Shown here one piece after another: positions 27,226 to 46,953 of a stretch of 46,953 bases of DNA. The translations under genes and the position numbers were made by a program. Position 1 is the stretch's first letter; each line of letters begins with the position of its first letter. This DNA is from Sedimentisphaerales bacterium. GTDB taxonomy: Bacteria > Planctomycetota > Phycisphaerae > Sedimentisphaerales > Anaerobacaceae. The notes under the pieces are model-generated. The model had not been told where the DNA came from, searched no databases, and saw only the letters and a program-made list of their open reading frames with translations. The stretch is taken from contig JAFGBG010000090.1 of assembly GCA_016933295.1 (NCBI GenBank), positions 1-46,953 of the forward strand. Reading direction: 5' to 3'.

Positions 27226-27234
27226 TTTGTCGGA

Positions 27235-28290
27235 TTATCCATCCAAATAAATTATATGCGTAAACGTTCTGCCTTCTTTGATAATGCCTTTGGAGTCAAA
27301 CAGCGTAAATGTAAATTTTAACGCCTTCCCAAGTCCTGGAATTTCATTGAAATGTATTTTATCAACCTGTTCTCTGGGATAATTGATATTATTGATTAAG
27401 ACAAGCCCGTTCGGTGGATACGGATAAAGCACGCCGGGAACAGTATTCGGATCGGAACTATACATGAAAAAATGGGTATCCGTAACACTGCCGTCTCGAT
27501 CGGGATCGACCTCGGGCAGCCATTTCTGCCTCTGCTCGGACCAGCCCTGAATCTTAAATTCGCTCACACCCTCACAAAAAAGCATATGTACCGAATTCGC
27601 ATCCGAAGGTTCGATAATCGCTCCCCTTGCATCTTCACTTACTATGCTGTCGGAGACCCGAACGTCGGTTACGACGGAAAGTATATCCTTTTTGTTTACC
27701 CAGGGAATTCTCTTCCACTGTTCCAGGGAGATTTTGTCGTACTCATAACGATTATTCCATTCGATCCATTGCACGTCCGTGAATCCGCCGGTATTCGGGA
27801 AATCGGCAAGATTTTCATCATCGGTCAATATGTGCTGAGTTCTGGCAAGTATCCGTTTCGTACAGTTCTGCTCTTCCGGCCTGGAATTGTTCTGCCTGGC
27901 AAGCATATAACAGATTCTTGCCGTATTGCCGCGAACCATCGGATCGATACCATAAGACTGGAAATCCCCTTCGGCAAAAAACATAATCCTGTCGAATCTT
28001 TCATATCCGTCGAGATCGTTATCCTTGTAAACGGTGCTTCGCAGCGGCTTTGCTTCCCAGACCACAAAAATCTCCCCGTCCTTGTTCAAACCCTTGAAAT
28101 CGGAATTTAGCTGGCTGGTTATGGCACGCAGCTTCTGCATAATCTCGGCGTTCGCTGCCGCCGTGCGATGTGAATTTATGCCGACTCGAAAAATAACACC
28201 CGCAAAAGACAACACAATTACGAGTATCCCTATGGCGACCATAAGCTCGACAAGGGTAAATGCTTTTTTTGTCCGTCTGTTAAAATTCAT
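27235..28290 (-). CDS. GspJ-like pseudopilin
   Basis: 351 residues. The class III signal is RRTKKA|FTLVELMVAIGILVIVLSFAG, with Ala rather than Gly at -1; Glu5 is present. It continues with HRTAAANAEIMQKLRAITSQ and LNSDFKGLNK, the helix pattern of the GspJ/PilW group. The C-terminal domain contains VHMLFCEGVSEFKIQGWSEQ, like the GspJ beta fold (SFRYYD-type segment). It would join GspI and GspK at the pseudopilus tip. It is 31 bases after the GspI-like gene and 9 bases before the GspK-like gene, all on one strand. Confidence 0.8.
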   Translation of the reverse strand: MNFNRRTKKAFTLVELMVAIGILVIVLSFAGVIFRVGINSHRTAAANAEIMQKLRAITSQLNSDFKGLNKDGEIFVVWEAKPLRSTVYKDNDLDGYERFDRIMFFAEGDFQSYGIDPMVRGNTARICYMLARQNNSRPEEQNCTKRILARTQHILTDDENLADFPNTGGFTDVQWIEWNNRYEYDKISLEQWKRIPWVNKKDILSVVTDVRVSDSIVSEDARGAIIEPSDANSVHMLFCEGVSEFKIQGWSEQRQKWLPEVDPDRDGSVTDTHFFMYSSDPNTVPGVLYPYPPNGLVLINNINYPREQVDKIHFNEIPGLGKALKFTFTLFDSKGIIKEGRTFTHIIYLDG

Positions 28291-28321
28291 ATATTAAACG
28301 AATGTATTCTTTTCGATCCAC

Positions 28322-29065
28322 TTAGAATCTGATTAGCTTTTGATATACGGCAACGACAGGATTTCTGCCGCCGTTGACAGGCGGCGGAACGACCCACACC
28401 GAGTCGGCCGATTGTCCCTGCCATGTTCTGTCGAGAACGATTGTATTGGGCGAGTCCGGATCACGCTGGAGCACTCGATAAATCCCGCCCGTTCGATTAT
28501 CCACAATTTTATAACCGTCGTTGATATACGCCCACTGGTTCGAGTTGTTAATAACCAGCTTATTACCTTCGGCTCCCGCCCCAAGCGAAACGCCGACCTC
28601 GACAGGCGTTGGAATATTTCCACCCCCCGGATACGTGGGATTATTGCCAACCCTTCTGCTTATCAAGACTGTCACCTGAACAAGACGATTTTCCGAGCCG
28701 GGATACGCGGATCTGCACAAAGCAGACCAGAAATATTGTTTATCATAATCTGTTTGCGTCGAAGGATATGCAAATTCGCCGGAGGTTATCTCCGCATTCA
28801 ACATTTCATATCGTATCAGTCCGTCGGTCGTCAGGTTCGGGTCCGTCGGATCGATATCAAAGAGTCTGACTTTAGCAAACGCCTCATCGGCTACCACCGA
28901 CGCAATTGTCCGCTCGGTCGAAATTGTCGAAAGATAAACCCCCGCAAGAAAAGTGCCGCTTACAAACGTCATCCCGATAGCGAGAGTTCCTACGGCCAAT
29001 AAAACCTCGGTAAGAGAGAAACCTTTATTTTTCGATGCCAATTTCATTTTCAATCTGCGATTCAT
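28322..29065 (-). CDS. GspI/PilV-like pseudopilin
   Basis: 247 residues. The signal is KLASKNKG|FSLTEVLLAVGTLAIGMTFVSG with Glu5 in place. SLTEVLLA and the following VADEAFAKVRLFDIDP helix match the GspI/PilV (type IV pilus modification) type. Its start overlaps the preceding gene's stop by four bases (ATGA), so translation is coupled. The C-terminal domain is beta-rich and ends NPVVAVYQKLIRF. It is larger than E. coli GspI (about 120 residues), which fits the generally enlarged pseudopilins of this locus. Confidence 0.8.
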   Translation of the reverse strand: MNRRLKMKLASKNKGFSLTEVLLAVGTLAIGMTFVSGTFLAGVYLSTISTERTIASVVADEAFAKVRLFDIDPTDPNLTTDGLIRYEMLNAEITSGEFAYPSTQTDYDKQYFWSALCRSAYPGSENRLVQVTVLISRRVGNNPTYPGGGNIPTPVEVGVSLGAGAEGNKLVINNSNQWAYINDGYKIVDNRTGGIYRVLQRDPDSPNTIVLDRTWQGQSADSVWVVPPPVNGGRNPVVAVYQKLIRF

Positions 29066-29904
29066 AAACGATTACTTATTAATGTCCCCGTATAGGGGTT
29101 GATATAAATCGGCTCCAGGCTGTTCAAATAATCGAGTCTTCCCTGAGCATCCAATTTATCGAACTGAATACCGTCGTAGATGATAATCCTGTTTCTGCTG
29201 GATTCGGCCCCCAGACCCAGGTGGGCATAATCATCCTGAACGAACTTGCCGATGCCGAGATTTTCTATATTCTCGGGCGAATTAAAAATATCATCCATTG
29301 AGGTTCTTGCCGGGTTCGTGTTATCCGGCCGGTAAATTCCGTCTTTATTTCTCAGACGAACTTCATGGACAATCAGCTTCCCGGTAGGCGCAAAAACAAT
29401 CGAGAAGCTGGACATATCCGTAATATATACATTTTTCCCGTCGGCTCCCAAATTTTGTGAACTCGTATCATCGAGATTGGCTGCACGCAGCAAAGTTTCG
29501 TGCAAATCCTCGGCGTCGCCGGAACCGGAACCGTGATTGACCCTGACCATAAAATCCGCCGCCCTTACATCGCCCGAAAATTTTATCGGTTCGATACCTT
29601 CAACCGCCCTAAAACCGGAGCTCAATCCCGTTTTCTCGGGATCGTGCACGATGTATATCATATATTGACAGCCGTCCTTATCCTGTTGAAACCTTATCCC
29701 GGCGTAACGATGCTCTTTGGCCGCTATGGCGCGTGCGCCGGAAAGAGCCGCGCTCAACATATCCCTGGAGCCGCTGCTGAACTCGAAAGATTTCAGAAGA
29801 GCCCGGACGGCGGGCAGACCGATAGCGGTAAGCAATGCTATGATTGCCATCACAACAACCATCTCGGTCAGCGTTAATCCGGAATATTTCTTCGTTCTTT
29901 TCAT
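29062..29904 (-). CDS. GspH/FimT-like pseudopilin
   Basis: 280 residues. The signal is KKYSG|LTLTEMVVVMAIIALLTAIGLP with Glu5 present. The helix continues as AVRALLKSFEFSSGSRDMLS and AALSGARAIAAKEHRYAGIR, the GspH/FimT pattern with a beta-strand pair starting at YAGIRFQQDKDGCQYMIYIV. The body then carries lineage-specific loops. The C-terminus (LEPIYINPYTGTLISNRL) is not known to me. It lies 10 bases after the GspG-like gene and overlaps the GspI-like gene. Confidence 0.8.
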   Translation of the reverse strand: MKRTKKYSGLTLTEMVVVMAIIALLTAIGLPAVRALLKSFEFSSGSRDMLSAALSGARAIAAKEHRYAGIRFQQDKDGCQYMIYIVHDPEKTGLSSGFRAVEGIEPIKFSGDVRAADFMVRVNHGSGSGDAEDLHETLLRAANLDDTSSQNLGADGKNVYITDMSSFSIVFAPTGKLIVHEVRLRNKDGIYRPDNTNPARTSMDDIFNSPENIENLGIGKFVQDDYAHLGLGAESSRNRIIIYDGIQFDKLDAQGRLDYLNSLEPIYINPYTGTLISNRL

Positions 29905-29914
29905 TTCGTTCTAT

Positions 29915-30376
29915 TTATCTGCTGCTGATGTCATCAGCAGTGTTAAATATTTTATCCCGTCCGGCGGAAACCAGTTTCGGAAAAGCCTCCCCGCCGGTAT
30001 AAAAGTATTCCAATACGGTCCCCCACGGGTCATAAATCTGCGGCAAATCATTATCTGGATTTTTTCGTATCAACGACTCACTTATTCCTTCCAGTACTTT
30101 GCGAGAATCCGGCGTCGAGTAAAGCTGTCCGTAAAGAGCCGCCGAGTGCGTGGAATAGGCAGATTGATTCGGATCGGGAAACGTTCCCCAAAAATCTTTA
30201 TATTCCTGCAGCGATCCTTTAAGAAGCTCGAAGGTATTTTGCAGCCCCTTTTCTTTAGCCTGATTATCGAAACGAGAGGTCAGGCTGATTATCATTGTCG
30301 CCAGAATCGCGACTATACCAACCACAATCACCATCTCGATGAGGGTCAGGCCTTGCTTGTATTTATCCGTTCTCAT
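29915..30376 (-). CDS. GspG-like pseudopilin
   Basis: 153 residues, the most classical pseudopilin of the set. The signal is KYKQG|LTLIEMVIVVGIVAILATMI with Glu5 present. The C-terminal part, DPWGTVLEYFYTGGEAFPKL followed by VSAGRDKIFNTADDI, matches the calcium-binding loop of major pseudopilin GspG (usually Gly-Asp-x-x-Tyr, then D-x-G-x-D-x-T-x-D-D-I). GspG polymerises into the pseudopilus that pushes substrates through the secretin. The leader is clear and length is near the usual 140. It is 37 bases downstream of a large pseudopilin and 10 bases upstream of the GspH-like gene. Confidence 0.85.
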   Translation of the reverse strand: MRTDKYKQGLTLIEMVIVVGIVAILATMIISLTSRFDNQAKEKGLQNTFELLKGSLQEYKDFWGTFPDPNQSAYSTHSAALYGQLYSTPDSRKVLEGISESLIRKNPDNDLPQIYDPWGTVLEYFYTGGEAFPKLVSAGRDKIFNTADDISSR

Positions 30377-30413
30377 AGCTCAAGCTCGCCCTTTCGGGTG
30401 TGGATGGACATAT

Positions 30414-31253
30414 TTAATTTCCAAAATTCCGAATATCGTCGCTCGTTCCGTAACGACCATCGGCCCCGGCCGAAATTAAAATGTAAGAATCGGCCCGGTA
30501 AGGCCAGACTCTCGCATCTCTTTTGGGGTCTCTTATATAGTTATAGAAAAACTCATAGTTATTATTCGCCACGCCCAAAGGATGCCAGCCGTCTCCCCTG
30601 TTGTCCGCCTGTTCCTTGACCTGAATGAGGATATCATTGTCGAAAGGATTATAAATTTTATCTATACTTGTCTCGGATTCATTAGCCTTGTAATAAAGAA
30701 TCGGCGCACCGGCATTGACTGCCTTTCCGTTAATCAATTTTACTTTCTTGAAGCCGAACACATCGCAAATCACGTAAGTTTCAGGGGCTAAATATCCGGT
30801 ATCATTAAATAAGCCCTGCACATTGGTCATATTGCCTAATCTGAAAACATTATCGCCGGCAAGATCCAGGTAAGGACGTTTTCTCTGGTCGAATAAAACC
30901 GAATCATCGGCATCATATACAAAGACGCCGTCGTCGTTGTATCCGTTGGATCTGAAATTAGACCTCGGATGAAAACCTAACAAATCCCAGCCTAAAAGGG
31001 CTTCGGTAAGCTTTTGTGCGCCACAGTAATCAGCATGACCGGCGGATAATTCAGAAGGCGGGTAGTCACCGAAATCATTTTTGTATGCCGTAAGAGCCAG
31101 ATCGATTGCAGTGAACTGGGCCTGCTGTTTCGCTTCCCTTGCGGACCTTTGCACCACAGTAAAAGCGGGGATAAGTAATCCGACCAACAATGCTATGATA
31201 CTCAGCACCACTAACAATTCCACGAGAGTGAGTCCTGTTTTTTTACGCTTCAC
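30414..31253 (-). CDS. Large pseudopilin, paralogue of the one at 32237
   Basis: 279 residues. The signal is KRKKTG|LTLVELLVVLSIIALLVGLL with Glu5. After the helix (AREAKQQAQFTAIDLALTAY) comes DFGDYPPS, CGAQKLTEALLGWDLLGFHP and a C-terminal YILISAGADGRYGTSDDIRN, which is a GspG-type calcium loop. The paralogue at 32237-33145 has the same order of parts (CGAMKLAEAMVGQDLMGFHP and YILMSAGNDGEFGTADDICN). A related protein type is widespread in Planctomycetota pilin clusters. The role is probably pseudopilus subunit or substrate-contact pilin; not established. Confidence 0.82.
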   Translation of the reverse strand: MKRKKTGLTLVELLVVLSIIALLVGLLIPAFTVVQRSAREAKQQAQFTAIDLALTAYKNDFGDYPPSELSAGHADYCGAQKLTEALLGWDLLGFHPRSNFRSNGYNDDGVFVYDADDSVLFDQRKRPYLDLAGDNVFRLGNMTNVQGLFNDTGYLAPETYVICDVFGFKKVKLINGKAVNAGAPILYYKANESETSIDKIYNPFDNDILIQVKEQADNRGDGWHPLGVANNNYEFFYNYIRDPKRDARVWPYRADSYILISAGADGRYGTSDDIRNFGN

Positions 31254-31292
31254 TTTTAATCCCTTTTTATATTTATAACCGTAAGCAAAGAT

Positions 31293-32114
31293 TTATTGTT
31301 GCTCCTGCGGATAACTGTTGAGAAGCCAGTTACCGGCAAGAATTGAAAAATCCATAAAGTTTACAATACCATTCGTTTCAGTATCGTCATCCTGGTTCAA
31401 ATTGTACCGGTCGGAAGCGGGAACTTCCGCCAGCCACACATCCGCGGCTAATTTCAGGTCGTTCATATCGACATAGCAGTCGCGGTTAAAATCACCGGCC
31501 AGAACTCCGCCGCCGTTACAGATAAGAACGCTCTCAATATTGTCCCACCACGCGCGGTAAAATTCGAAAAAACCGCTTGCCGTATCCACATTTACCATCA
31601 GTCCGAACGATATCGTATGCAGCTCGTCTGCTCTGTATTGGTCCTCAACTTCGTAAACCTGCTCAAGATGAATCCCTCTTATATCCGGGACGGCGTTGTT
31701 CGGCTCCCAAACAATATTGTCGTCTATCATCACAAAGACAGTGACATCGTTCGGATTCCACTTCGCACCGGTATACGTTTCAAGCTTCATGTCGAATTTA
31801 ATTTCATCGACGTCCGCCAGGCATATCTGCTGAGAAACTTTCGCCGTATCACCGGCGGTAAAGGCTTGAAACCACTGCGAGGCAATATTCAGGCTAAAAG
31901 AACCGTCTGTTGACCATGAAGCATCCGTCTTTGCCGTGAACTGACCCGGCGGTATCTCGGCGATCCAGCCGTTCGGATCCTGGTCAGCGAGATTGTTTAT
32001 TCTGCCGTTGTCTTCGAAACTGCCGTTGACAATCTCACAAATATCGGCTTGTGTTGGATTGGCAGCCAATAACATAGCCATCATTGCCCCAATAACTATC
32101 AGGTTCCTGGTCAT
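31293..32114 (-). CDS. Secreted dockerin-type protein inside the pseudopilin operon
   Basis: 273 residues from the ATG giving MTRNLIVIGAMMAMLL, with GGGAGAA upstream; an earlier ATG lacks a site. A Sec signal peptide (about residues 1-23, cut after TQA-D) is followed by a beta-sandwich domain (EIVNGSFEDNGRINNLADQD, AWWDNIESVLICNGG), which resembles a carbohydrate-binding or DUF642-like fold. The C-terminus is a type I dockerin: GDFNRDCYVDMNDLKLAADV, then DRYNLNQDDDTETNGIVNFM and DFSILAGNWLLNS, with two calcium loops. Dockerins bind cohesins or act as stand-alone domains at the cell surface in this phylum. Its position between two pseudopilin genes suggests a secreted partner or substrate of the machine. 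Confidence 0.83.
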   Translation of the reverse strand: MTRNLIVIGAMMAMLLAANPTQADICEIVNGSFEDNGRINNLADQDPNGWIAEIPPGQFTAKTDASWSTDGSFSLNIASQWFQAFTAGDTAKVSQQICLADVDEIKFDMKLETYTGAKWNPNDVTVFVMIDDNIVWEPNNAVPDIRGIHLEQVYEVEDQYRADELHTISFGLMVNVDTASGFFEFYRAWWDNIESVLICNGGGVLAGDFNRDCYVDMNDLKLAADVWLAEVPASDRYNLNQDDDTETNGIVNFMDFSILAGNWLLNSYPQEQQ

Positions 32115-32236
32115 TGTTTTCTCCCTCTCCCCCAGGTTCAATTTATAAGCATTTTTTAATTATAGACCTGCGTAATTCACTCCGGCAAAATTACACTCTT
32201 TATTCACATCCAGACCAAGCTTTATCCAATAACTTA

Positions 32237-33145
32237 TTATGGTATCTCCTGGTATTTCCAGTCATAATTACAGATATCATCGGCTGTCCCGAACTCACCG
32301 TCGTTACCGGCGGACATCAGGATGTAAGTATCCTTTCGATAAGGCTGGTACCTCGTTGTCACCTGTGTATTCCAGGTGTTCAAGTAAAATCTTTTACCGG
32401 CACCACCTTCAGTGGCAAGTTTGTGTGCTGTACCACCTGCGCTACCGGGCGGATCCCACGGCTTACCGAGCAGAAGCAATTGCTGATTATCCATGTAGTC
32501 ATAAATATTATCGGGGTCATCGGGATTGTTGATATTATGGCTTGTGTTCGCCGTGTTTGCCTTGTAATAAAGTATCGGCATACCAATGCTCTTGCCCGTG
32601 CCTCGATGCTTCACACGCCCGAATACATCGCATAAGACGAAATGAGCAGACTCGAAAGAACCCGTGTCATTATAGATATCTGCGAGCCGATAGGCATTAG
32701 CATTTTCAATCGGCAGGTATGGGCCTTTCCTGGCAGTCGTATCAACTGTCCCTGTCCCTGTTCCTGTCCCGGTATCTCCACTGGTGTACAACCGCCTTCC
32801 ATCGTAGTCGGTGCCATCGCTTCTGAAAACGGAATCCGGATGGAATCCCATTAAATCCTGACCTACCATCGCTTCGGCAAGTTTCATCGCCCCACAGTAC
32901 GGGGTACCGACCGAGTCCGTTGCACTTGAATCCGGCAACTGGTCGAATTCACTGTTGAAAAGCTCTATCGCAACGCTGATACTGTTAAACTGAGCCCGTT
33001 GCCTGACCTCGCGGGCAAACTTTCTAACCTGGTTCAAAGCCGGCACAAGCAGACCGATGAGAATAACAATTATGCTCATCACGGTCAGCAGTTCGACAAT
33101 GGTAAATGCCGCTTTGTGTTTGGTTTTTCTTACGATTGATTTCAT
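32237..33145 (-). CDS. Large pseudopilin with Gly-Thr repeat loop
   Basis: 302 residues. The signal is KHKAA|FTIVELLTVMSIIVILIGLL with Ala at -1 and Glu5 present. The layout is the same as the paralogue at 30414-31253: helix with REVRQRAQFNSISVAIELFN, CGAMKLAEAMVGQDLMGFHP, and a terminal calcium loop YILMSAGNDGEFGTADDI. A loop of alternating Gly-Thr (GDTGTGTGTGTVDTT) is encoded by four near-exact 6-base units at 32746-32769. It may change length by slippage in steps of two residues. It is the third gene of the operon, after gspF. Confidence 0.82.
   Translation of the reverse strand: MKSIVRKTKHKAAFTIVELLTVMSIIVILIGLLVPALNQVRKFAREVRQRAQFNSISVAIELFNSEFDQLPDSSATDSVGTPYCGAMKLAEAMVGQDLMGFHPDSVFRSDGTDYDGRRLYTSGDTGTGTGTGTVDTTARKGPYLPIENANAYRLADIYNDTGSFESAHFVLCDVFGRVKHRGTGKSIGMPILYYKANTANTSHNINNPDDPDNIYDYMDNQQLLLLGKPWDPPGSAGGTAHKLATEGGAGKRFYLNTWNTQVTTRYQPYRKDTYILMSAGNDGEFGTADDICNYDWKYQEIP
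32746..32769. repeat. Hexanucleotide tandem repeat (4 units) in a pseudopilin gene
   Basis: On the plus strand the units read CTGTCC, CTGTCC, CTGTTC, CTGTCC. They are in frame and encode alternating Gly-Thr. One unit has a base change that is silent in the protein. Slippage would keep the frame. Confidence 0.7.
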
Positions 33146-33197
33146 TTTTCTTGCTCCTTAATTTTAACTTTTCAATTAAATATTCATTTTGTTATTT

Positions 33198-34502
33198 TTA
33201 GCCTGCACTTAAGTTCGTAATAATCTGTATCATAGGTGCGAAAATCGCCAAAACAATGGTCATAACCATCGAACCGAGAACAACAATCATTACAGGCTCA
33301 AGCATGGACATCAAAGACCCGACGAGCACGTCAACCTGCTCATCGAAATTATCCGCCACTTTCAAAAGCATCTTGTCCAGGTCACCCGTTTCCTCGCCCA
33401 CGGCGACCATGTTACAGACAATCAAATCGACTGTTTTTGACTGCTTTAACGGACTGGCAAAAGTATCTCCCTGTTTAATGGAATTGTGAACTCTGCCGAG
33501 CATGTTTGCAAACACTTCGTTTCCCGCCGTATCTCGCGTGACGCTGATGGCATCGAGAATAGGCACACCCGCGCTAATCAAGGTGCCCAAAGTTCTGGTC
33601 CATCGCGTAACCGAGACTTTATTGGTAAGCTGGCCTATAATCGGTATTTTCAGCTTGATTGTATCCAGGACTACTCTGCCGGGACGGAATCGCCTTATAA
33701 ATTTCAACAAGAAAATTATTGCAAAGGGCAAGCCAAGCATCACAAGCCAACCTCCCACAGGCCAACCTAAATAGGGTATCCTGAGATCCATGCCGGGCAA
33801 AACCGGCCCCATTGCGATCCAGCCGCTTACAGCCAGCACAATCTGAGTGATTCTCGGTAATTCGCCGCCATCAGTCATCTCTGTAAGAGCCTCCTCGAAC
33901 GAAGGCACAACAAACAACATTAATCCGAGAAGGATAAGAAACGCGGCGGTCAATACGACAATCGGATATATCATCGCGCCTTTAACCCTGGCTTTGAGCT
34001 TCTGGGCTTTCTCCATAAAATCCGCCACTCTTGATAAGATAAGATCCAGCACACCGCCTGTTTCACCGGCGGCCACCATGCTGACCATCAGGCGGTCAAA
34101 TGCTCTTGTGTATTTGCCCATTGCTTCCGAAAGCGTAGAGCCGCCTTCGATATCGTCGGCTACGTAGCCGATAATCCTCTTGAATGCTCCCGACTTTTGC
34201 TGCTCTTCGAGAATCCTCAGCGACCTCAGAATCGGCAAACCCGCATCCTGAAGCGTCGAGAGCTGTCTGGCGAACTGCGTAACGACTTTGACCTTGGCCC
34301 TTCCGCCGGCTCCTCGCCTTTTCGCGGGCTTGGCGGCAGCTTTTGCACCTGCTTTTTTCCCCCCGCCCCCAACGGTGACTTTCGTGGGGAAATAACCCAT
34401 ATTACGTATTTTGCTTATCGCTTCTTTTTGACTGAGGGCTTCGATTTCATCCTTAATTTCCACACCCTGTGCGTCGAGAGCTGTATATTGAAAGACAGAC
34501 AT
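33198..34502 (-). CDS. gspF: Type II secretion / type IV pilus inner-membrane platform protein
   Basis: 434 residues. It is GspF/PilC, the polytopic platform protein that couples the ATPase to pilin addition. Residues 1-42 are the usual N-terminal FQYTALDAQG...IRNMGYFPTKV segment. A basic Gly/Ala/Lys linker covers 45-72. The first T2SSF domain is at 73-195 (FARQLSTLQDAGLPILRSLR, MVAAGETGGVLD) with a membrane helix at 178-200. The second domain follows at 295-415 (WTRTLGTLISAGVPILDAIS, MVAVGEETGDLDKMLLKVAD) with a terminal helix. An extra hydrophobic region at 218-265 (SGWIAMGPVLPGMDLRIPYL) adds length. It is 65 bases after gspE on the same strand. Confidence 0.94.
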   Translation of the reverse strand: MSVFQYTALDAQGVEIKDEIEALSQKEAISKIRNMGYFPTKVTVGGGGKKAGAKAAAKPAKRRGAGGRAKVKVVTQFARQLSTLQDAGLPILRSLRILEEQQKSGAFKRIIGYVADDIEGGSTLSEAMGKYTRAFDRLMVSMVAAGETGGVLDLILSRVADFMEKAQKLKARVKGAMIYPIVVLTAAFLILLGLMLFVVPSFEEALTEMTDGGELPRITQIVLAVSGWIAMGPVLPGMDLRIPYLGWPVGGWLVMLGLPFAIIFLLKFIRRFRPGRVVLDTIKLKIPIIGQLTNKVSVTRWTRTLGTLISAGVPILDAISVTRDTAGNEVFANMLGRVHNSIKQGDTFASPLKQSKTVDLIVCNMVAVGEETGDLDKMLLKVADNFDEQVDVLVGSLMSMLEPVMIVVLGSMVMTIVLAIFAPMIQIITNLSAG

Positions 34503-34567
34503 TTTAATTACCTCCCATGTAGCCGGGTTTTCCCGTTCGGTTACGTTTCATAACAACTCCAAACTTC

Positions 34568-36340
34568 TTATATTTCTTCCATCATTGTTTCTTTAACGAT
34601 TTCATCTATCGTTGTGATACCATCAAAAATTGCTTCCAGCCCGTTGTCTCGCAGCAATCTCATGCCGGCTTTTAAAGCGGCGGCTCGCAATACTCCCGTT
34701 GATGCCTGATTCATTATCAAGTCTCTTATTTCGTCATTGAATACCATAATCTCAAAAATACCGAGCCGTCCCTTATAACCGGTTCCATTGCAATTGCCGC
34801 ATCCACGACCATAGTAGAACTTTTTGTCCTTGACCTCGTCGGGTGTCAGCTGTAATTCCATTAATTGAGCTTCATTCGGCTCGAATTGAGTCTTGCAGCT
34901 TGTACATATTCTCCTGACCAGTCTCTGGGCCACAATCCCTTCGATTGTTGCGGTAATAAGAAACGGTTCTACTCCCAAATCTAAAAGTCTTGCTACCGAG
35001 CTTGGGGCGTCGTTGGTATGCAGGGTTGTAAATACGACGTGGCCTGTCAGAGAAGACTGTGCGGCAATTTGTGCTGTTTCAAGGTCACGAATCTCACCGA
35101 CTAATATAATATCGGGGTCCTGACGCAATATTGAACGGAGACATCTGGCAAAAGTCAGCCCGATTTCAGATTTCATTTGCACCTGAACAAGACCGTCAAC
35201 ATTGTATTCCACGGGGTCTTCGGTTGTGATTATTTTTGTCTCGATGTCATTAAGCTCATCCAATGCCGAGTAAAGAGTCGTGGTTTTGCCGCAACCGGTC
35301 GGGCCGGTTACAATAATAATACCGTTGGGTTTACGAATAAGCTGACGAACTATTTCGTGCTCTTTGGGCCTGAGACCAAGCTCTGCCAGATCGAAGCTGG
35401 CCTGGGATCTGTCGAGGATACGCAGCACGACGCTTTCACCGAACATAGTGGGTAAAACACTGACTCGCAAGTCAACGGGATTACCCTGGACGGTTAGCGA
35501 GATTCTGCCGTCCTGCGGCAGACGCCGCTCGGCAATATCAAGATCCGCCATAACTTTGATACGCGAGCTAAGAGCTGCGGCAATGTACTTCGGAGGAGGT
35601 ATCATTTCGTAAAGTACGCCGTCGATGCGGTAACGCATCTTGTACTCATTCTCGAACGGCTCAAAGTGGATGTCCGAGGCTTTATCTCTGATCGCCTGCA
35701 ACAATACGAGGTTCAGTAATTTTTTGACCGGATTCGATTCCGAGAGCTCTTTTAATTCGTCCAGGTCTATACTCTGGTTTCTGCCGTCAAATTCCGCCAG
35801 AAAGCTGTCGCCCTGAATCTCATCTATAAGCTCGTTAATATTATTGGAGTCCTGTTGTTCTTCGTAATATTTGGCGAGAGCTTTATCCAGGGCAGCCGGG
35901 TCGGTTATCCTGGCGATAACTTTTGAACCTGTAAGCGTTCGAAGATCGTCGGTAGCCCTGAAATTATCAGGACTGTCAAGAACTACTATCAACTCATTTT
36001 GTTCCTGCTTGTATTCGACCGGAACAATGTGATAAGTTTTGGCCATCTGTGCCGGCACTTTCTCTATCACATCAGCGGCAATATCAATTCCGTCAAGACT
36101 CATATATTCCATTCCGAGTTGAGCCGCCAGTGCCATTTGCAACTGGCTTTCATCAACCAAGCCCAGTTCGATAAATATTTCACCTATCTTGACACCGCCC
36201 TGCCGCTGGCTCTGAATCTTGAGACATTCGTGGACTTTGTCCCGGCTCAGGATGCCCATCTTTATAAGTATCCTTCCGATAGTTCTGCCTCTTAACTGAT
36301 CCACCGGAGGAAGTTTTGGTTTGTTATTTATTTTTCCCAT
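34568..36340 (-). CDS. gspE: Type II secretion / type IV pilus assembly ATPase
   Basis: 590 residues from the ATG with AGGACA upstream (MGKINNKP); a 12-codon longer frame is less likely. It is the GspE/PilB assembly ATPase. Domains are: an N-terminal MshEN-like region (about 20-165, GRILIKMGILSRDKVHECLK, LGMEYMSLD), N1/N2 domain (about 195-320), and the ATPase core. Walker A is GPTGCGKT at 346-353, the Asp box is TTEDPVEY (373-380), Walker B is DPDIILVGEIRD (408-419), the His box is HVVFTTLHTNDAP, and a tetra-cysteine zinc site has Cys479, Cys482, Cys514, Cys517. MshEN domains often bind cyclic di-GMP, which would link to the PilZ protein at 3814. It is the first gene of the operon. Confidence 0.95.
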   Translation of the reverse strand: MGKINNKPKLPPVDQLRGRTIGRILIKMGILSRDKVHECLKIQSQRQGGVKIGEIFIELGLVDESQLQMALAAQLGMEYMSLDGIDIAADVIEKVPAQMAKTYHIVPVEYKQEQNELIVVLDSPDNFRATDDLRTLTGSKVIARITDPAALDKALAKYYEEQQDSNNINELIDEIQGDSFLAEFDGRNQSIDLDELKELSESNPVKKLLNLVLLQAIRDKASDIHFEPFENEYKMRYRIDGVLYEMIPPPKYIAAALSSRIKVMADLDIAERRLPQDGRISLTVQGNPVDLRVSVLPTMFGESVVLRILDRSQASFDLAELGLRPKEHEIVRQLIRKPNGIIIVTGPTGCGKTTTLYSALDELNDIETKIITTEDPVEYNVDGLVQVQMKSEIGLTFARCLRSILRQDPDIILVGEIRDLETAQIAAQSSLTGHVVFTTLHTNDAPSSVARLLDLGVEPFLITATIEGIVAQRLVRRICTSCKTQFEPNEAQLMELQLTPDEVKDKKFYYGRGCGNCNGTGYKGRLGIFEIMVFNDEIRDLIMNQASTGVLRAAALKAGMRLLRDNGLEAIFDGITTIDEIVKETMMEEI

Positions 36341-36380
36341 AAGATTTGTCCTGTAATCTTTTGCATTCCAAATCAATTGT

Positions 36381-40145: not shown

Positions 40146-41279
40146 ATGAGTGTTGAACAACCAATTGATGATCGAACAAGCCTTGAACATGAACCGGAGC
40201 TGAACAAATATTTCAAAGCGGCAATTAAAACGCGGGCAAGCGATTTGCATCTGAAAGTCGGGCAGCCACCCAAACTGCGCCTGTTTGGAGAATTAAAGAA
40301 GACCACCGGTGAAGTAATGTCGGCTAAAAGAATAGAGGAATTGGTTTTCGAGATACTCAGCCCCTCCCAGAAAAAATTCTTCCTGGAGCACGGGACATTG
40401 GATTTCGCCTATGAGTTGGACGGCGAGCATCGTTTCCGGACAAACCTGTTCCGCCAGCGAGGCATGATAAGTCTCGCCGCCAGAAGGGTTAATTCGTCCA
40501 TCCCGCCATTCAAAGAGCTCCATTTACCCCCGGTAATGGAAAAAATATGCGAGTACAGACAGGGATTAATACTCGTTGTCGGGCCGACCGGCTGTGGAAA
40601 AACAACAACAATCGCTTCCTTGATTAATTATATAAATCTTACTCGATCCTGCCATATAGTAACAATCGAAGATCCCATCGAATATCTTTTTAAGGACGAA
40701 AAAGCGATTGTCTCACAAAGAGAAATCGGGATAGATGTCAAAGACTTCGAAGAAGCACTTACGTATCTGATGCGCCAGGACCCGGATGTGGTATTCGTCG
40801 GGGAAATGAGAGATGCCAGAACAGTCAACGCCGGAATGAGGGCTGCGGAAACAGGTCACCTTGTATTCGGAACTTTACATTCATCAAATGCGGCCCAGGC
40901 GGTCCACAGGCTTTTGGATTTGTTTCCCCAAACCGAACGAGACCTTGTAAGGCAGACTCTGAGTCTGGCGATTCGGGCAATTATTAGTCAGGCTCTGCTT
41001 CCTTGTCTTATCGAAGGCGTGGACAGAATACCCGCCATGGAGATTTTACTCGTCAATGCGGCCTCAAGAAAATTGATTGCCGAAGGTCGTGAAGCTGATC
41101 TGTCAAGTGTCATACGGGGCTCCCAGCATGAAGGGATGCAGGATCTGACATACAACCTGTGTGAATTGGTCAAAAACGGTTCCATCGATCCCAAGGACGC
41201 ATATAAATACGCGCCTAATATCGAAGAGCTCAAAATGGCACTGAAAGGAATTACAACCACTTCCGGTGGTATTTTGTGA
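40146..41279 (+). CDS. pilT: Twitching-motility type retraction ATPase PilT
   Basis: 377 residues, the usual PilT length of about 345-380. It is a hexameric ATPase that depolymerises type IV pili. The N-terminal PAS-like domain covers about 15-115 (KAAIKTRASDLHLKVGQPPK). Walker A is GPTGCGKT at 146-153, the Asp box is TIEDPIEYLF, Walker B is DPDVVFVGEMRD (212-223), and the His box is GHLVFGTLHSSNAAQAVHR. ISQALLPCLIEG and AMEILLVNAA follow, as in PilT/PilU. It heads a plus-strand set with the pseudo-ATPase gene, whose frame overlaps its end. PilT beside a GspE/GspF operon suggests pili that can be pulled back. Confidence 0.93.
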   Translation: MSVEQPIDDRTSLEHEPELNKYFKAAIKTRASDLHLKVGQPPKLRLFGELKKTTGEVMSAKRIEELVFEILSPSQKKFFLEHGTLDFAYELDGEHRFRTNLFRQRGMISLAARRVNSSIPPFKELHLPPVMEKICEYRQGLILVVGPTGCGKTTTIASLINYINLTRSCHIVTIEDPIEYLFKDEKAIVSQREIGIDVKDFEEALTYLMRQDPDVVFVGEMRDARTVNAGMRAAETGHLVFGTLHSSNAAQAVHRLLDLFPQTERDLVRQTLSLAIRAIISQALLPCLIEGVDRIPAMEILLVNAASRKLIAEGREADLSSVIRGSQHEGMQDLTYNLCELVKNGSIDPKDAYKYAPNIEELKMALKGITTTSGGIL

Positions 41280-41298: not shown

Positions 41299-42942
41299 AT
41301 GCCGGAATTAGTATTAGCATCTGTCGCCTTCGGCGGTTACGTTTCCATAATAAAACTTCTTGTTTTCCTGATCTTGTTTCTCGGAGCTCTTCCGTTGCTC
41401 GGTTGGGTGCATATTGACGCCGAAGCCCTGGAAACAAAAAGCCCCGTTTGGACGGTCGTGATTCTCTGTGCAGTGGCGGCGGGAATACTCGTCTGGCTTT
41501 TGGTGCCGATTTTTATTATCGGCATGCTATTCTATATGATAGCAGTCGGAGGTACATCTATTGCATATGTGAAGTATCGCAATGCGAGGGTTCTGGATTT
41601 TGATCGAGTTCTGACCGTCGATCACATCAAAAACCTGCTCGTAAGCAAGGAAAAGAAAATCGAGAGTCTGAAGAGCTTCTCCTTTATAACGGCAAATAAA
41701 AACGAAGTTCCTATCCCTGAGCCGCGAACACCCGACTTTTTCGGCTATAAAATAGCCTATGAAATTCTCAAAGATGCCTCATGGCGAAGGGCAAGCAACA
41801 TAGCATTTTCTCCGACCCCGCAGGATTATCAGGTCGCCTACAATGTCGATGGTGTAGTGCTTAAGCAGCCTAATATAAACAGGGACCAGATGGAATATTT
41901 CATTCACTTCGTTAAGCACTTGTCCGATTTGGACACGAACGAAAAACGGAAACCTCAAAAAGGTAAATTCATGCTCCATTGGGCCAAAGAGCAAAATTAT
42001 ACCAACTGGGAGGTTACCACGGCGGGTTCGACGGCCGGAGAGCAAGTCAGGCTTAAACAGTTGATGCAGGACAAAGCGGCAAGATTAAGTGAGCTGGGTC
42101 TGATGCCGGAGCAGCTCGAACAATTCAAAAAATTCCGCGAGATAAAGCAGGGCTTGTTTATCATAAGCGGCCCGGAGAAAAGCGGCGTGACTACAACTCT
42201 TTATGCAATGCTGCGCAACCATGATGCTTTTCTTAATAATATAAACACACTCGAAAGACAGCCATCGGACCAGTTGCCGAATATTACTCAAAACGTTTAT
42301 AGCCTGAGTGACACAGGCACAACCTTCGCCCAGAAACTCCTGAATGTAGTCAGGATGGGCCCGGATGTTGTCGGTGTCGCAGGTTGTGAAGACCCGCAGA
42401 CCGCACAGGTCGCCTGCGCGGCGGCAAAAGACAGTAAAATTGTGTACCTTACATTAAGTGCCGACGGCGTGTTACAGGCGCTAAGTAAATTTTTGAAATT
42501 TGCCGGGGATAGAAATGTCGTTGCCCAAACCCTCCTGGGAATAAGCAACCAAAGACTTGTCAGAAAGCTCTGCCCCGAATGCAAGCAGGGTTATACACCG
42601 GACAAGGAAATGCTCAGAAAGTTCAATCTCTCTGCTGATAAAACAAAAGTCCTATACCGGGCCGGCAAAGTTATTTACGACAAACGCGGCAAGGCTTCGA
42701 CCTGTGAGCACTGTCAGGGAACGGGTTACGTGGGAAGAACAGCTATTTTCGAGATTGTCACAATCAATAAAGAACTGGCAAAAGCCATACGCTCACAACC
42801 CGTGCCTGAAATTGCCAAGCAGTTCAGACGTGCCAAAATGCTCTATTTACAGGAGCAGGCACTGAGAAAAGTCATCAACGGAACGACGACAATAAACGAA
42901 ATGATTCGTTCGCTTAAAACGAAAGAGAAAAAACCTGCATGA
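41299..42942 (+). CDS. Membrane-anchored GspE-like protein with degenerate ATPase motifs
   Basis: 547 residues from the ATG with GGAG upstream (MPELVLASVAFGGY). Three hydrophobic segments (about 17-35, 50-68 and 69-90) form an N-terminal membrane domain not found in GspE. Residues 145-480 resemble the GspE/PilB core. The P-loop reads GPEKSGVTTT (291-300), so the catalytic lysine is Val297 and the first Gly/Thr are changed. Walker B is degraded to MGPDVVGVAGCEDPQTAQ (canonical Glu lost). The tetra-cysteine zinc site is kept (LCPEC near 425; TCEHCQGTGYVGR near 470). The protein is therefore unlikely to hydrolyse ATP and may act as an anchor or regulator of a true GspE/PilT hexamer. It begins 19 bases after the pilT stop. 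Confidence 0.85.
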   Translation: MPELVLASVAFGGYVSIIKLLVFLILFLGALPLLGWVHIDAEALETKSPVWTVVILCAVAAGILVWLLVPIFIIGMLFYMIAVGGTSIAYVKYRNARVLDFDRVLTVDHIKNLLVSKEKKIESLKSFSFITANKNEVPIPEPRTPDFFGYKIAYEILKDASWRRASNIAFSPTPQDYQVAYNVDGVVLKQPNINRDQMEYFIHFVKHLSDLDTNEKRKPQKGKFMLHWAKEQNYTNWEVTTAGSTAGEQVRLKQLMQDKAARLSELGLMPEQLEQFKKFREIKQGLFIISGPEKSGVTTTLYAMLRNHDAFLNNINTLERQPSDQLPNITQNVYSLSDTGTTFAQKLLNVVRMGPDVVGVAGCEDPQTAQVACAAAKDSKIVYLTLSADGVLQALSKFLKFAGDRNVVAQTLLGISNQRLVRKLCPECKQGYTPDKEMLRKFNLSADKTKVLYRAGKVIYDKRGKASTCEHCQGTGYVGRTAIFEIVTINKELAKAIRSQPVPEIAKQFRRAKMLYLQEQALRKVINGTTTINEMIRSLKTKEKKPA

Positions 42943-43047: not shown

Positions 43048-44214
43048 ATGATCAGTACTATAGTTGTGTTGTTAATAGTCGCGGGTTGTGCCGCCTTTCA
43101 GTTCTTCAAAGGCACAATTGCCAGGGCGTTTGCCACTATCGTTATTGCTGTTTTTGCGTGTATCGTTGCTTTCGGCTTTTTCGAGGCACTGGCGGGCCTT
43201 CTGATAAAACGCGGCGAAAGCGGCAGTATGTTGTCCCTCGTGCCATGGGCGCAGGCAATCGTTTTTTTGCTGCTTTTCGTTCTGGTTTTTGCAGTTTTAC
43301 AGACAGCTATGACTCAATTAACACCCAAAAAAATCGACATGGGTTACCTGCCCGAACAAATAGGACGTCCCATCCTCGGAGCAATCCTGGGGCTTATTGT
43401 ATCCGGCGTCCTGTTGACATTCCTCGTTCTCGCACCCTTACCGGACACATATCCCTACCCGAGATTTGAGTCAAGGAGCATCAAGGTCGATAATCCCGCC
43501 AAAGCTTTTCCGAATGTTGACGGACTCGTGACAGGCTTGTTCGGCGTTATAAGCAACGGCTCCTTCAGCGGCCAGAGAAGTTTTGCCACTATGCACCCGG
43601 ACTTTCTGGACCAGATTTTTCTGAACCGGCTCGAGGGCGATGTATCGCTCGCCACAAGTAACACTCCGGCAATTGATGTGCCACGGGATGCTGCGGTATG
43701 GCCGGCGACCGAGACTGTCAAAACCAGGTTGGAAGAGCTTAATAGTCAGGGGCAGCTTGCACGCTCGCCGGGAAAGCTAAAAAGCGGCTCCGACCTGATG
43801 ATTGCACGAGTCGGAATCAAAAGGGCCGCCCTGAACGCCGAACAAAAAGTTAGTGCCGGCAATTTCACTCTTTCTCAGTTAAGACTGATATGCAAACGCA
43901 GGGGATATGACGGAAACCAGCTCACCGGCAAGGGGCAAAATGTTTATCCGATCGGATATCTTACCTCAGCGAATCAGATAGAAACATCCTACAAAATAAC
44001 AATAAGCGGCAACGATTTCGGAAACAGCCAAACAAAATATCTCGATTTTATCTTTGCCGTACCAAATGGTTTTGTCCCGGCTCTGGTCGAGTTTAAGCTC
44101 AACAGTGTTGTTCAAATCCCGACAAAAGCAATACTAAACGATGCTGCTGAAGCACTTTCGGCAGCCGGCTCTGATGGCTCCCGTCAAGAGACAACGCCCG
44201 GCGGCGATACATAG
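43048..44214 (+). CDS. CvpA family membrane protein with C-terminal extension
   Basis: 388 residues. Four hydrophobic helices (about 2-21, 25-50, 66-90 and 106-128) form a CvpA-like domain (FQFFKGTIARAFATIVIAVF, GYLPEQIGRPILGAILGLIV). CvpA is linked to colicin V production and envelope integrity; its mechanism is not settled. Unlike ordinary CvpA (about 160 residues), a periplasmic domain of about 250 residues follows, including AVWPATETVKTRLEELNSQG and YKITISGNDFGNSQTKYLDF. This resembles extended CvpA proteins of Planctomycetota. A good ribosome site is present (CCGGAGATTTTGTAATG). It sits downstream of pilT and the pseudo-ATPase gene, separated by 105 bases with a possible RNA structure. 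Confidence 0.8.
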   Translation: MISTIVVLLIVAGCAAFQFFKGTIARAFATIVIAVFACIVAFGFFEALAGLLIKRGESGSMLSLVPWAQAIVFLLLFVLVFAVLQTAMTQLTPKKIDMGYLPEQIGRPILGAILGLIVSGVLLTFLVLAPLPDTYPYPRFESRSIKVDNPAKAFPNVDGLVTGLFGVISNGSFSGQRSFATMHPDFLDQIFLNRLEGDVSLATSNTPAIDVPRDAAVWPATETVKTRLEELNSQGQLARSPGKLKSGSDLMIARVGIKRAALNAEQKVSAGNFTLSQLRLICKRRGYDGNQLTGKGQNVYPIGYLTSANQIETSYKITISGNDFGNSQTKYLDFIFAVPNGFVPALVEFKLNSVVQIPTKAILNDAAEALSAAGSDGSRQETTPGGDT

Positions 44215-44229
44215 GATCTCGAATAAAAA

Positions 44230-44392
44230 AAATCTAAAAAGTTAAAAATAAAAACTAAAAAAACTACGGAATCCGCCGAAGGCGGATGACTTCATTAATT
44301 TTGCTTTTTTCACTTTAAGTTTTTAGTTTCTCATGGGATGACTTCATTAATTTTGCGTTTTTAGCTTAGAGCTTTTAGTTTCTTGTGCACTT
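44230..44392. repeat. AT-rich dispersed element with hairpin (copy 2) and tandem half-copy
   Basis: The A-rich arm, GGAATC, hairpin ATCCGCC-GAA-GGCGGAT and ATGACTTCATTAATTTTGC with a T-rich arm are arranged as in the copy at 225-350. A second partial copy (44336-44392) repeats GGATGACTTCATTAATTTTGC and the TTTTTAG-to-TTTTAGTTTCT tail at a distance of 52 bases, but lacks the hairpin's left half. It lies directly after the CvpA-family gene. Confidence 0.65.
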
Positions 44393-45154: not shown

Positions 45155-45676
45155 GTGCAGAAAATTGAATTCAAAGAGCTGATCGACAACTATAGCGACA
45201 CCGTCCTGAAAACCGCCGCGCGGATACTGGGCGATATACAGCAGGCTCAGGATGTTCATCAGGAGGTGTTTCTTGAAATATGGCGACGATGGCATAAATA
45301 CAACGGGCAGACAAACTGGGATGCATATCTTTATCGCACAACGGTGCGAACGGCGATTAAATTTGCACGAAACTCACGTGCCGGGCAGAGTATAGTTCGT
45401 CAATCCCACGAGGGACACCTTACGGCGGAATACGCCGAAAGCCCGGATATGCCGGATGAGCCATTGAGAACCGCTGAATTGCGGCAAAAATTGGCCGCCT
45501 CACTTGAGAAATTACCGAAACGCCAGGCCGAAGTTTTTGTCCTTTCGAGAATGGAAGGAGTAAGCGCCGAAAAAATCGCCGAAATTCTTGGCTGCTCACA
45601 AAAGACAGTGAGGGTTCACCTCCATCGAGCGACCAGAAAATTAGCCCGTCAAATGAGTGACTATCTTATCGAATAA
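45155..45676 (+). CDS. ECF RNA polymerase sigma factor
   Basis: 173 residues from a GTG start with AAGGA about 8 bases upstream. Region 2 is LIDNYSDTVLKTAARILGD with QQAQDVHQEVFLEIWRRW. Region 4 is SLEKLPKRQAEVFVLSRMEG followed by VSAEKIAEILGCSQKTVRVH and LHRATRKLA. It is a group 4 sigma factor that starts transcription of a small regulon in response to an envelope signal. The next gene, 12 bases downstream, encodes the matching zinc-finger anti-sigma protein. Different in subgroup from the sigma factor at 21901, since the linker is longer and region 2 lacks the MNQNQ-type motif. Confidence 0.92.
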   Translation: MQKIEFKELIDNYSDTVLKTAARILGDIQQAQDVHQEVFLEIWRRWHKYNGQTNWDAYLYRTTVRTAIKFARNSRAGQSIVRQSHEGHLTAEYAESPDMPDEPLRTAELRQKLAASLEKLPKRQAEVFVLSRMEGVSAEKIAEILGCSQKTVRVHLHRATRKLARQMSDYLIE

Positions 45677-45688
45677 TACAGGTGCATT

Positions 45689-46953
45689 ATGAATGAACAT
45701 AAAAAAATAAAAAAATCTTTGGTAGATTACGCCCTTGGAGAGCTGCCGCAGGAGCAGACTTCTACGGTACAAACACATCTGGCCGAGTGTTCCGAATGCG
45801 GCAGTGAATTTAAACTTATCAAAGCACTGCTTGAATGTACGGATCAGATAAGCAAATCTTCGCCGGATAAACGAGTATGTGATTCGGCCAGGCAGGCGAT
45901 TCTTCAAAATGTAGAAAATCAAAAAATCAAACAAAACTCCGGGCTCATTATGAGTCTGGAATATATAAGAAAAACGATTATGAAAAGTCCCATCATAAAA
46001 ATCGCCGCTGCGGCGGTTATCATTATAGCTGCGGCAATAATTTTACATAACGGTTCGATAGATTTGGCGGGCACGACTTACGCTCAGATGCGTGAAAATA
46101 TACGAAAAATGCCCTGGGTGCATATCATAACCCAGGGAATCTACGAAGGACAGGAAGTAGAAATGGAGCAGTGGTTTTCCGACGAAGAAAGTATAATCGC
46201 ACTGAAAAAGCCCGGCGGTGAACTTGGATTTTCCGATTATAAAAAAGGAAGAAGATATATCTATGATCCCAATACACGGGTAATTTCACTGTCGTTTATC
46301 GAACCGAGCGAATACCCTAAAAATGCCATACCACTGCAAAACGGGATTGACTCCATGCTGTCTATGCTTACGCAGCAACAGGCTGATATCGTTCATCGTT
46401 CGGGACGCTTCCAGGGTGAAAAAGTCGAAATATATGATCTCGAATATAAAGTAGGAAAGATAACGATAAACGGCAGAATCAACGTTGATCCAAGAAGTCG
46501 TTTACCGATATCCTGCGAGTACGAGAGTACCGATGACGAAGGAAATCAGGCAACCGCATGGATGCGATTCGAGTTCCCTGAGAAAGGGCCGAAAAATATC
46601 TATGATATCGGCGCGCCCGATTCGGCGAAAGCTCCCGACGGGGATTTGCAGGATGTTCTGGAAACATATCTATCGCACAGAAATAACTGCCCGCAACGTT
46701 ATATTGCCATCGTTACGGAAGAGCAGTGGTACGACAAGATTCGGTATCTCGACATTATTTTCAATGACGGAAAAACTCAAAGTAAAGAAAAGCTCAGCAC
46801 AGACGAATTCAAAGAGCAGTGGATGAAATACGCCGGTCAAAAAGATGTTTCTTTCGATGACATGCTCGAACTGGCACAGAAGGGAGGCAACGAATACAGC
46901 CATATCAGTCTTTATACAGATGGAAAGTCTTACTGGACTTATCGAAGTAAAAA
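45689..46953 (+). CDS. Anti-sigma factor with zinc finger and long exported domain (runs off window end)
   Basis: At least 421 residues, open at the window end. Residues 1-50 are an anti-sigma zinc finger (zf-HC2 type): LVDYALGELPQEQTSTVQTH, then HLAECSECGSE with the H-x3-C-x2-C ligands. A membrane helix follows at about 109-127 (IIKIAAAAVIIIAAAIIL). The outer part (from TYAQMRENIRKMPWVHIITQ) resembles LolA/RseB-like beta folds: VEMEQWFSDEESIIALKKPG, YEGQEVE, RYIYDPNTRVISLSF. The cytoplasmic finger would hold the sigma factor encoded just upstream, and the outer domain may sense lipoprotein or envelope state. A GGTG lies before the ATG; the start is 12 bases after the sigma factor stop. Confidence 0.85.
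   Translation, partial: MNEHKKIKKSLVDYALGELPQEQTSTVQTHLAECSECGSEFKLIKALLECTDQISKSSPDKRVCDSARQAILQNVENQKIKQNSGLIMSLEYIRKTIMKSPIIKIAAAAVIIIAAAIILHNGSIDLAGTTYAQMRENIRKMPWVHIITQGIYEGQEVEMEQWFSDEESIIALKKPGGELGFSDYKKGRRYIYDPNTRVISLSFIEPSEYPKNAIPLQNGIDSMLSMLTQQQADIVHRSGRFQGEKVEIYDLEYKVGKITINGRINVDPRSRLPISCEYESTDDEGNQATAWMRFEFPEKGPKNIYDIGAPDSAKAPDGDLQDVLETYLSHRNNCPQRYIAIVTEEQWYDKIRYLDIIFNDGKTQSKEKLSTDEFKEQWMKYAGQKDVSFDDMLELAQKGGNEYSHISLYTDGKSYWTYRSK

Follow-up and report, generated by a model that had tools for sequence, protein, structure and literature searches.

Extension and retraction motors of type IV pili use a shared docking site at the pilus base, and it is debated whether they assemble there as mixed or as separate rings (PMC6711533, PMC6821130). 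For the extension ATPase PilB of Geobacter seven catalytic positions have been described, namely the Walker A lysine, the catalytic glutamate, two arginine fingers, the Asp-box glutamate and two His-box histidines, and a tetra-cysteine zinc motif marks the PilB/GspE branch (PMC5424180). In the type II secretion ATPase EpsE, zinc supports the stability of the hexamer (PMC5061722). On the retraction side, PilU is an accessory ATPase that depends on PilT. PilU-driven retraction continues when the Walker A of PilT is dead but not when PilT is deleted, and homohexamers of the two proteins may form a complex; the pair is thus a precedent for a catalytically silent partner that docks an active one (PMC6821130).

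The window analyzed here is a stretch of 46,953 nucleotides from a Sedimentisphaerales bacterium. At 41299–42942 on the plus strand it encodes a 547-residue, membrane-anchored pseudo-ATPase with a PilB/GspE fold, immediately downstream of a pilT gene. A literature search in openly licensed papers found no description of a membrane-anchored pseudo-motor. A motor homolog of this kind, which has lost catalysis and is anchored in the membrane next to PilT, allows structural and catalytic roles to be told apart, so that the docking question becomes testable. As sister lineages with complete motifs exist, both states are open to direct comparison.

Fold and degenerate catalytic site

The reading frame extends from the ATG at 41299 to the stop codon at 42942, as given in the initial annotation. 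PF00437 (T2SSE) matched residues 154–537 over profile positions 13–370 of 370 (E 1.4e-55), and the core has hence kept its length, as had been claimed. The AlphaFold model (mean pLDDT 83.5) consists of a PilB core and three long N-terminal helices. In structure comparison, residues 146–540 aligned with Thermus PilF, Geobacter PilB and Vibrio EpsE with Z scores of 30–31, and the core matched the PilT fold with a Z score of 25. By fold and descent the protein belongs to the PilB/GspE family, with which it shares the core, the zinc site and a C-terminal motif. In contrast, it scored only 209 bits against the NCBIfam GspE equivalog (cut-off 630) and 200 bits against the PilB equivalog (cut-off 676). 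Also the N-terminus differs. PilB/PilF and GspE have cytoplasmic N-terminal domains there, usually MshEN/N1, and MshEN is found in the intact GspE/PilB of the window (34568–36376). In its place, the pseudo-ATPase features three predicted membrane helices at residues 17–43 (41347–41427), 48–68 (41440–41502) and 72–95 (41512–41583, all plus strand), seen both in the AlphaFold model and in hydropathy, in agreement with the three hydrophobic segments noted earlier.

The P-loop reads SGPEKSGVTTTLY. In this degenerate Walker A (GPEKSGVTT, 42169–42195, plus strand), Val297, encoded by gtg at 42187–42189, stands in the place of the lysine. The Walker B and catalytic glutamate region (42361–42390, plus strand; PDVVGVAGCE) reads PDVVGVAGCED compared with PDIILVGEIRD in the intact GspE of the window, with Gly362 at the position of the catalytic glutamate. 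Both of these losses had been described in the initial annotation, which turned out to be too modest. When the Geobacter PilB numbering (PMC5424180) was carried over through the intact GspE of the window, E238, K253, S323, K380 and S387 were found at the equivalents of R271, R286, E357, H413 and H420. Thus, none of the seven catalytic positions is left, with E, K, V, S, G, K and S replacing R, R, K, E, E, H and H. In the degenerate Asp box (42244–42270, plus strand) the first glutamate, E319, is kept and the Mg-coordinating one is replaced by S323; the former His box (42433–42474, plus strand) contains neither histidine. Lacking the Walker A lysine, catalytic glutamate, arginine fingers and His box that define PilB/PilF and GspE, the protein would not be a functional member of this family.

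The structural positions behave differently. The four zinc-site cysteines are all present, as previously stated: C425 and C428 (42571–42582, plus strand) are found in 94–96% of Phycisphaerae sequences, C469 and C472 (42703–42714, plus strand) in 96–98%, and both pairs in 100% of a second lysine-less clade discussed below. The C-terminal residues G528, E534 and R537 are retained at 98–100%. In contrast, 52 Phycisphaerae sequences keep between zero and three of the seven catalytic residues. The earlier statement that the loss centers on catalytic parts, with fold and zinc site preserved, is supported. In two loci of one family (L110 and L111, family f10) and in L131 the zinc cysteines are gone as well. 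From f10 it follows that the ring-stabilizing site is not essential everywhere, and these sequences point to further degeneration in some lineages.

Conservation, selection and order of events

Of 61 near relatives, 57 have an ortholog with the membrane domain, if a split copy and two partial ones are included. Among 150 sampled Phycisphaerae genomes the number is about 145, as counted from the best scores. Assemblies of Phycisphaerae and Sedimentisphaerales make up the named relatives. The lysine was absent from every Phycisphaerae row read in an alignment of 231 sequences (about 93 whole-genome loci and 80 named loci, partly repeating the same genomes). Chance or an assembly error is ruled out, as full-length orthologs with the same losses occur throughout the class. 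One assembly (QNBT01, isolate B26_G16) contains two full-length copies on different contigs (L256 and L259), by duplication or contamination.

For ten pairs of degenerate genes we obtained dN/dS values of 0.03–0.23, which are approximate since many synonymous sites are near saturation. These values indicate purifying selection and, together with the class-wide retention of fold and zinc site, bear out the proposal of selection for a non-catalytic role. A decaying gene, under relaxed selection after loss of function and retained by chance, would account for the degenerate catalytic motifs and for the copy in one relative (G012) that is interrupted by a stop; it is nevertheless most improbable in view of the dN/dS values, the open frames and the synteny held throughout the class. 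Class-wide conservation and dN/dS likewise rule out a recent loss or a pseudogene. The protein might also still be an ATPase of unusual chemistry, in which another residue serves for the Walker lysine. The former site is not random sequence: G296 does not vary, T299 is frequent, and 98% of Phycisphaerae copies retain E319 (codon 42253–42255) despite its lost catalytic surroundings. However, the position of the lysine is freely occupied by different residues (V, L, I, R, A, T, M, Q) with no conserved substitute, and catalytic glutamate, arginine fingers and His box were lost together, so that such an activity appears improbable. To the extent that sequence allows a judgment, catalysis by the Phycisphaerae protein is excluded, and the gene almost certainly encodes an ancient pseudo-ATPase maintained by selection.

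Families f49, f97, f98 and f99, for which we infer the class name Planctomycetia, and groups f56 and f70 have proteins of this membrane-anchored architecture whose motifs are intact. Loci L118–L126, L138–L164 and L210–L213 combine an intact GPTGxGK[ST] with the same membrane domain. All seven catalytic residues are present in 18 Planctomycetia sequences and in all four f56/f70 sequences; two further Planctomycetia sequences keep six. These intact PilB-like proteins (for example L119, L123 and L138) resemble the pseudo-ATPase in membrane domain, PilB core, an upstream pilT and, in most cases, a downstream CvpA-like gene, but keep six to seven catalytic residues, compared with zero to three in the Phycisphaerae. 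In the gene tree the membrane-anchored planctomycete family formed one clade against ordinary GspE/PilB paralogs (SH-aLRT 100), with the Phycisphaerae as a single clade and the intact forms as the deepest branches.

Since intact sister groups encode the same membrane-anchored protein, the membrane domain came first and the loss of catalysis followed, before the Phycisphaerae diversified. A joint gain of the membrane domain with the loss of catalysis is ruled out by the intact forms with a homologous domain, and the initial description of membrane segments added to a dead enzyme has to be reversed accordingly in its order. The initial annotation had also reasoned that homologs with an intact GxxGxGKT and the same membrane domain would make this copy a recent loss. 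Such homologs do exist, but the loss is not recent, as no Phycisphaerae copy that we read has the lysine.

A second lysine-less clade is found within Planctomycetia (families f90, f100, f102, f104 and f105). Four loci (L204, L205, L209 and L214, from f103, f101 and one f97 member) have kept the Walker A lysine and lost other catalytic residues, and apparently represent separate or intermediate stages of degeneration. Two losses of the lysine are favored over a single one, because both states occur in one class, as judged from the relatives of G309 that were searched, which came from one class. Taxonomy thus leans to two losses and the gene tree fits either number: neither Planctomycetia as one clade (p-AU 0.18) nor all lysine-less rows as one clade (p-AU 0.454) was rejected. 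Long branches may pull the two degenerate clades together, and we hence base no conclusion on their grouping as sisters.

PilT and the CvpA-like protein as genomic partners

The pseudo-ATPase gene starts 20 bases past the end of pilT (40146–41279, plus strand), the first gene of the putative operon. It encodes a 377-residue PilT-family retraction ATPase that scored 401.5 bits against NCBIfam TIGR01420 (cut-off 319.1) and has intact catalytic motifs, with both GPTGCGKTT, including the Walker A lysine, and GEMRD. After a further 105 bases follows a gene for a 388-residue CvpA-like membrane protein (43048–44214, plus strand). Of 230 loci, 208 have PilT upstream, and 207 of these PilT proteins contain GK[ST]; the one exception is truncated. 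The CvpA-like gene was found at 223 loci, in all of them downstream and on the same strand.

That orthologs always lie by pilT, as the initial annotation had asked, is correct as a conserved association and fails in one family. We told operon-type PilT apart by its score (535–614 bits, paralogs at most 403), and it was absent from all eight genomes of family f13, which keep the pseudo-ATPase. PilT as an obligate partner is hence ruled out for this family, and docking this PilT cannot be the sole role of the protein. At five f13 loci (L099, L100, L109, L131 and L134) the pseudo-ATPase persists together with the CvpA-like gene. In four genomes (G069, G260, G294 and G369) operon-type PilT is located elsewhere. 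Three near relatives without the pseudo-ATPase are also without operon-type PilT, which incomplete assemblies could partly explain as the genes are adjacent. Other neighbors were dismissed as members of the system because flanking genes vary between lineages. The most constant neighbor is thus the downstream CvpA-like gene and not pilT.

The CvpA-like protein is modeled (pLDDT 91.8) with four helices and a conserved soluble C-terminal β domain; a search for known folds in the PDB gave nothing at E below 0.001. With the colicin V production protein CvpA it shares the four N-terminal membrane helices and a weak profile match, but its score of 16.5 bits against Pfam Colicin_V lies below the gathering threshold of 29.3, and the soluble C-terminal domain is additional. 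Downstream of the CvpA-like gene, the near-identical tract gatgacttcattaattttgc is present twice within an AT-rich stretch (44289–44360).

Possible roles at the motor

We consider it most plausible, at a probability of roughly 0.45, that the protein serves as a membrane-anchored, non-hydrolyzing scaffold of PilB type for the docking or regulation of an active type IV filament motor. The retained fold, zinc site and membrane anchor fit a fixed scaffold, and the precedent of PilT with a dead Walker A illustrates that a motor homolog can be needed for docking without catalysis. The protein would no longer power anything and would be fixed in the membrane, probably still as an oligomer. It might dock or regulate the co-encoded PilT in the first place, with a ring-to-ring contact as proposed for PilU on PilT, and would act jointly with the CvpA-like membrane protein as its constant partner. 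In family f13, without operon-type PilT, the pair may serve another motor, such as a PilT or PilB paralog, or act alone. PilU is likewise a motor homolog functionally tied to PilT, and it is not known to carry a comparable membrane domain. Moreover, PilU keeps its Walker lysine (PMC6821130), unlike the pseudo-ATPase, and belongs to the PilT/PilU branch without the zinc motif (PMC5424180), which the pseudo-ATPase has.

Alternatively, the protein could join the co-encoded PilT, or a PilB, in hexamers in which some inactive interfaces would set force or direction. Its intact core, which matches both PilB and PilT, and the co-encoding with PilT would allow such mixed rings, and heterohexamers have been proposed for ATPases of this group (discussed in PMC6711533). 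We regard this as unlikely, though, as nucleotide-interface residues and the arginine fingers that reach the neighboring subunit are both lost, PilT and PilU of V. cholerae form separate homohexamers (PMC6821130), and some genomes keep the pseudo-ATPase without operon-type PilT. A further alternative is a sensor or regulator that controls pilus use by ligand binding or transmembrane signaling with the CvpA-like protein and makes no contact to a motor ring: the pair with the CvpA-like gene is more constant than the PilT link, the CvpA-like protein has its conserved soluble domain, and Myxococcus PilB can be a signaling protein (PMC5544727). Yet neither of the two proteins was found to contain a known sensor domain, and it is not obvious why a mere sensor should have kept the complete PilB core, which leaves this role just as doubtful as a mixed ring.

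Returning to the scaffold, we may speculate further, and with less confidence than for the scaffold as such, that it is a dedicated ancient pseudo-motor. A non-catalytic PilB ring in the membrane would then be a stationary socket, or a brake, for an active motor that can be exchanged; it would derive from an active, membrane-anchored ancestor, probably with more than one origin, and be used class-wide.

About 4 kb from the pseudo-ATPase operon, the window contains a cluster of filament or secretion genes (24658–36376, minus strand) with an HHH_3 protein, five reading frames with an N-terminal prepilin methylation motif, a T2SSF platform protein and the intact MshEN-GspE/PilB. On the other side of the operon (45155–46951, plus strand) a sigma-70-like regulator precedes a membrane protein whose N-terminus contains cysteine and which, by eye, resembles an anti-sigma factor.
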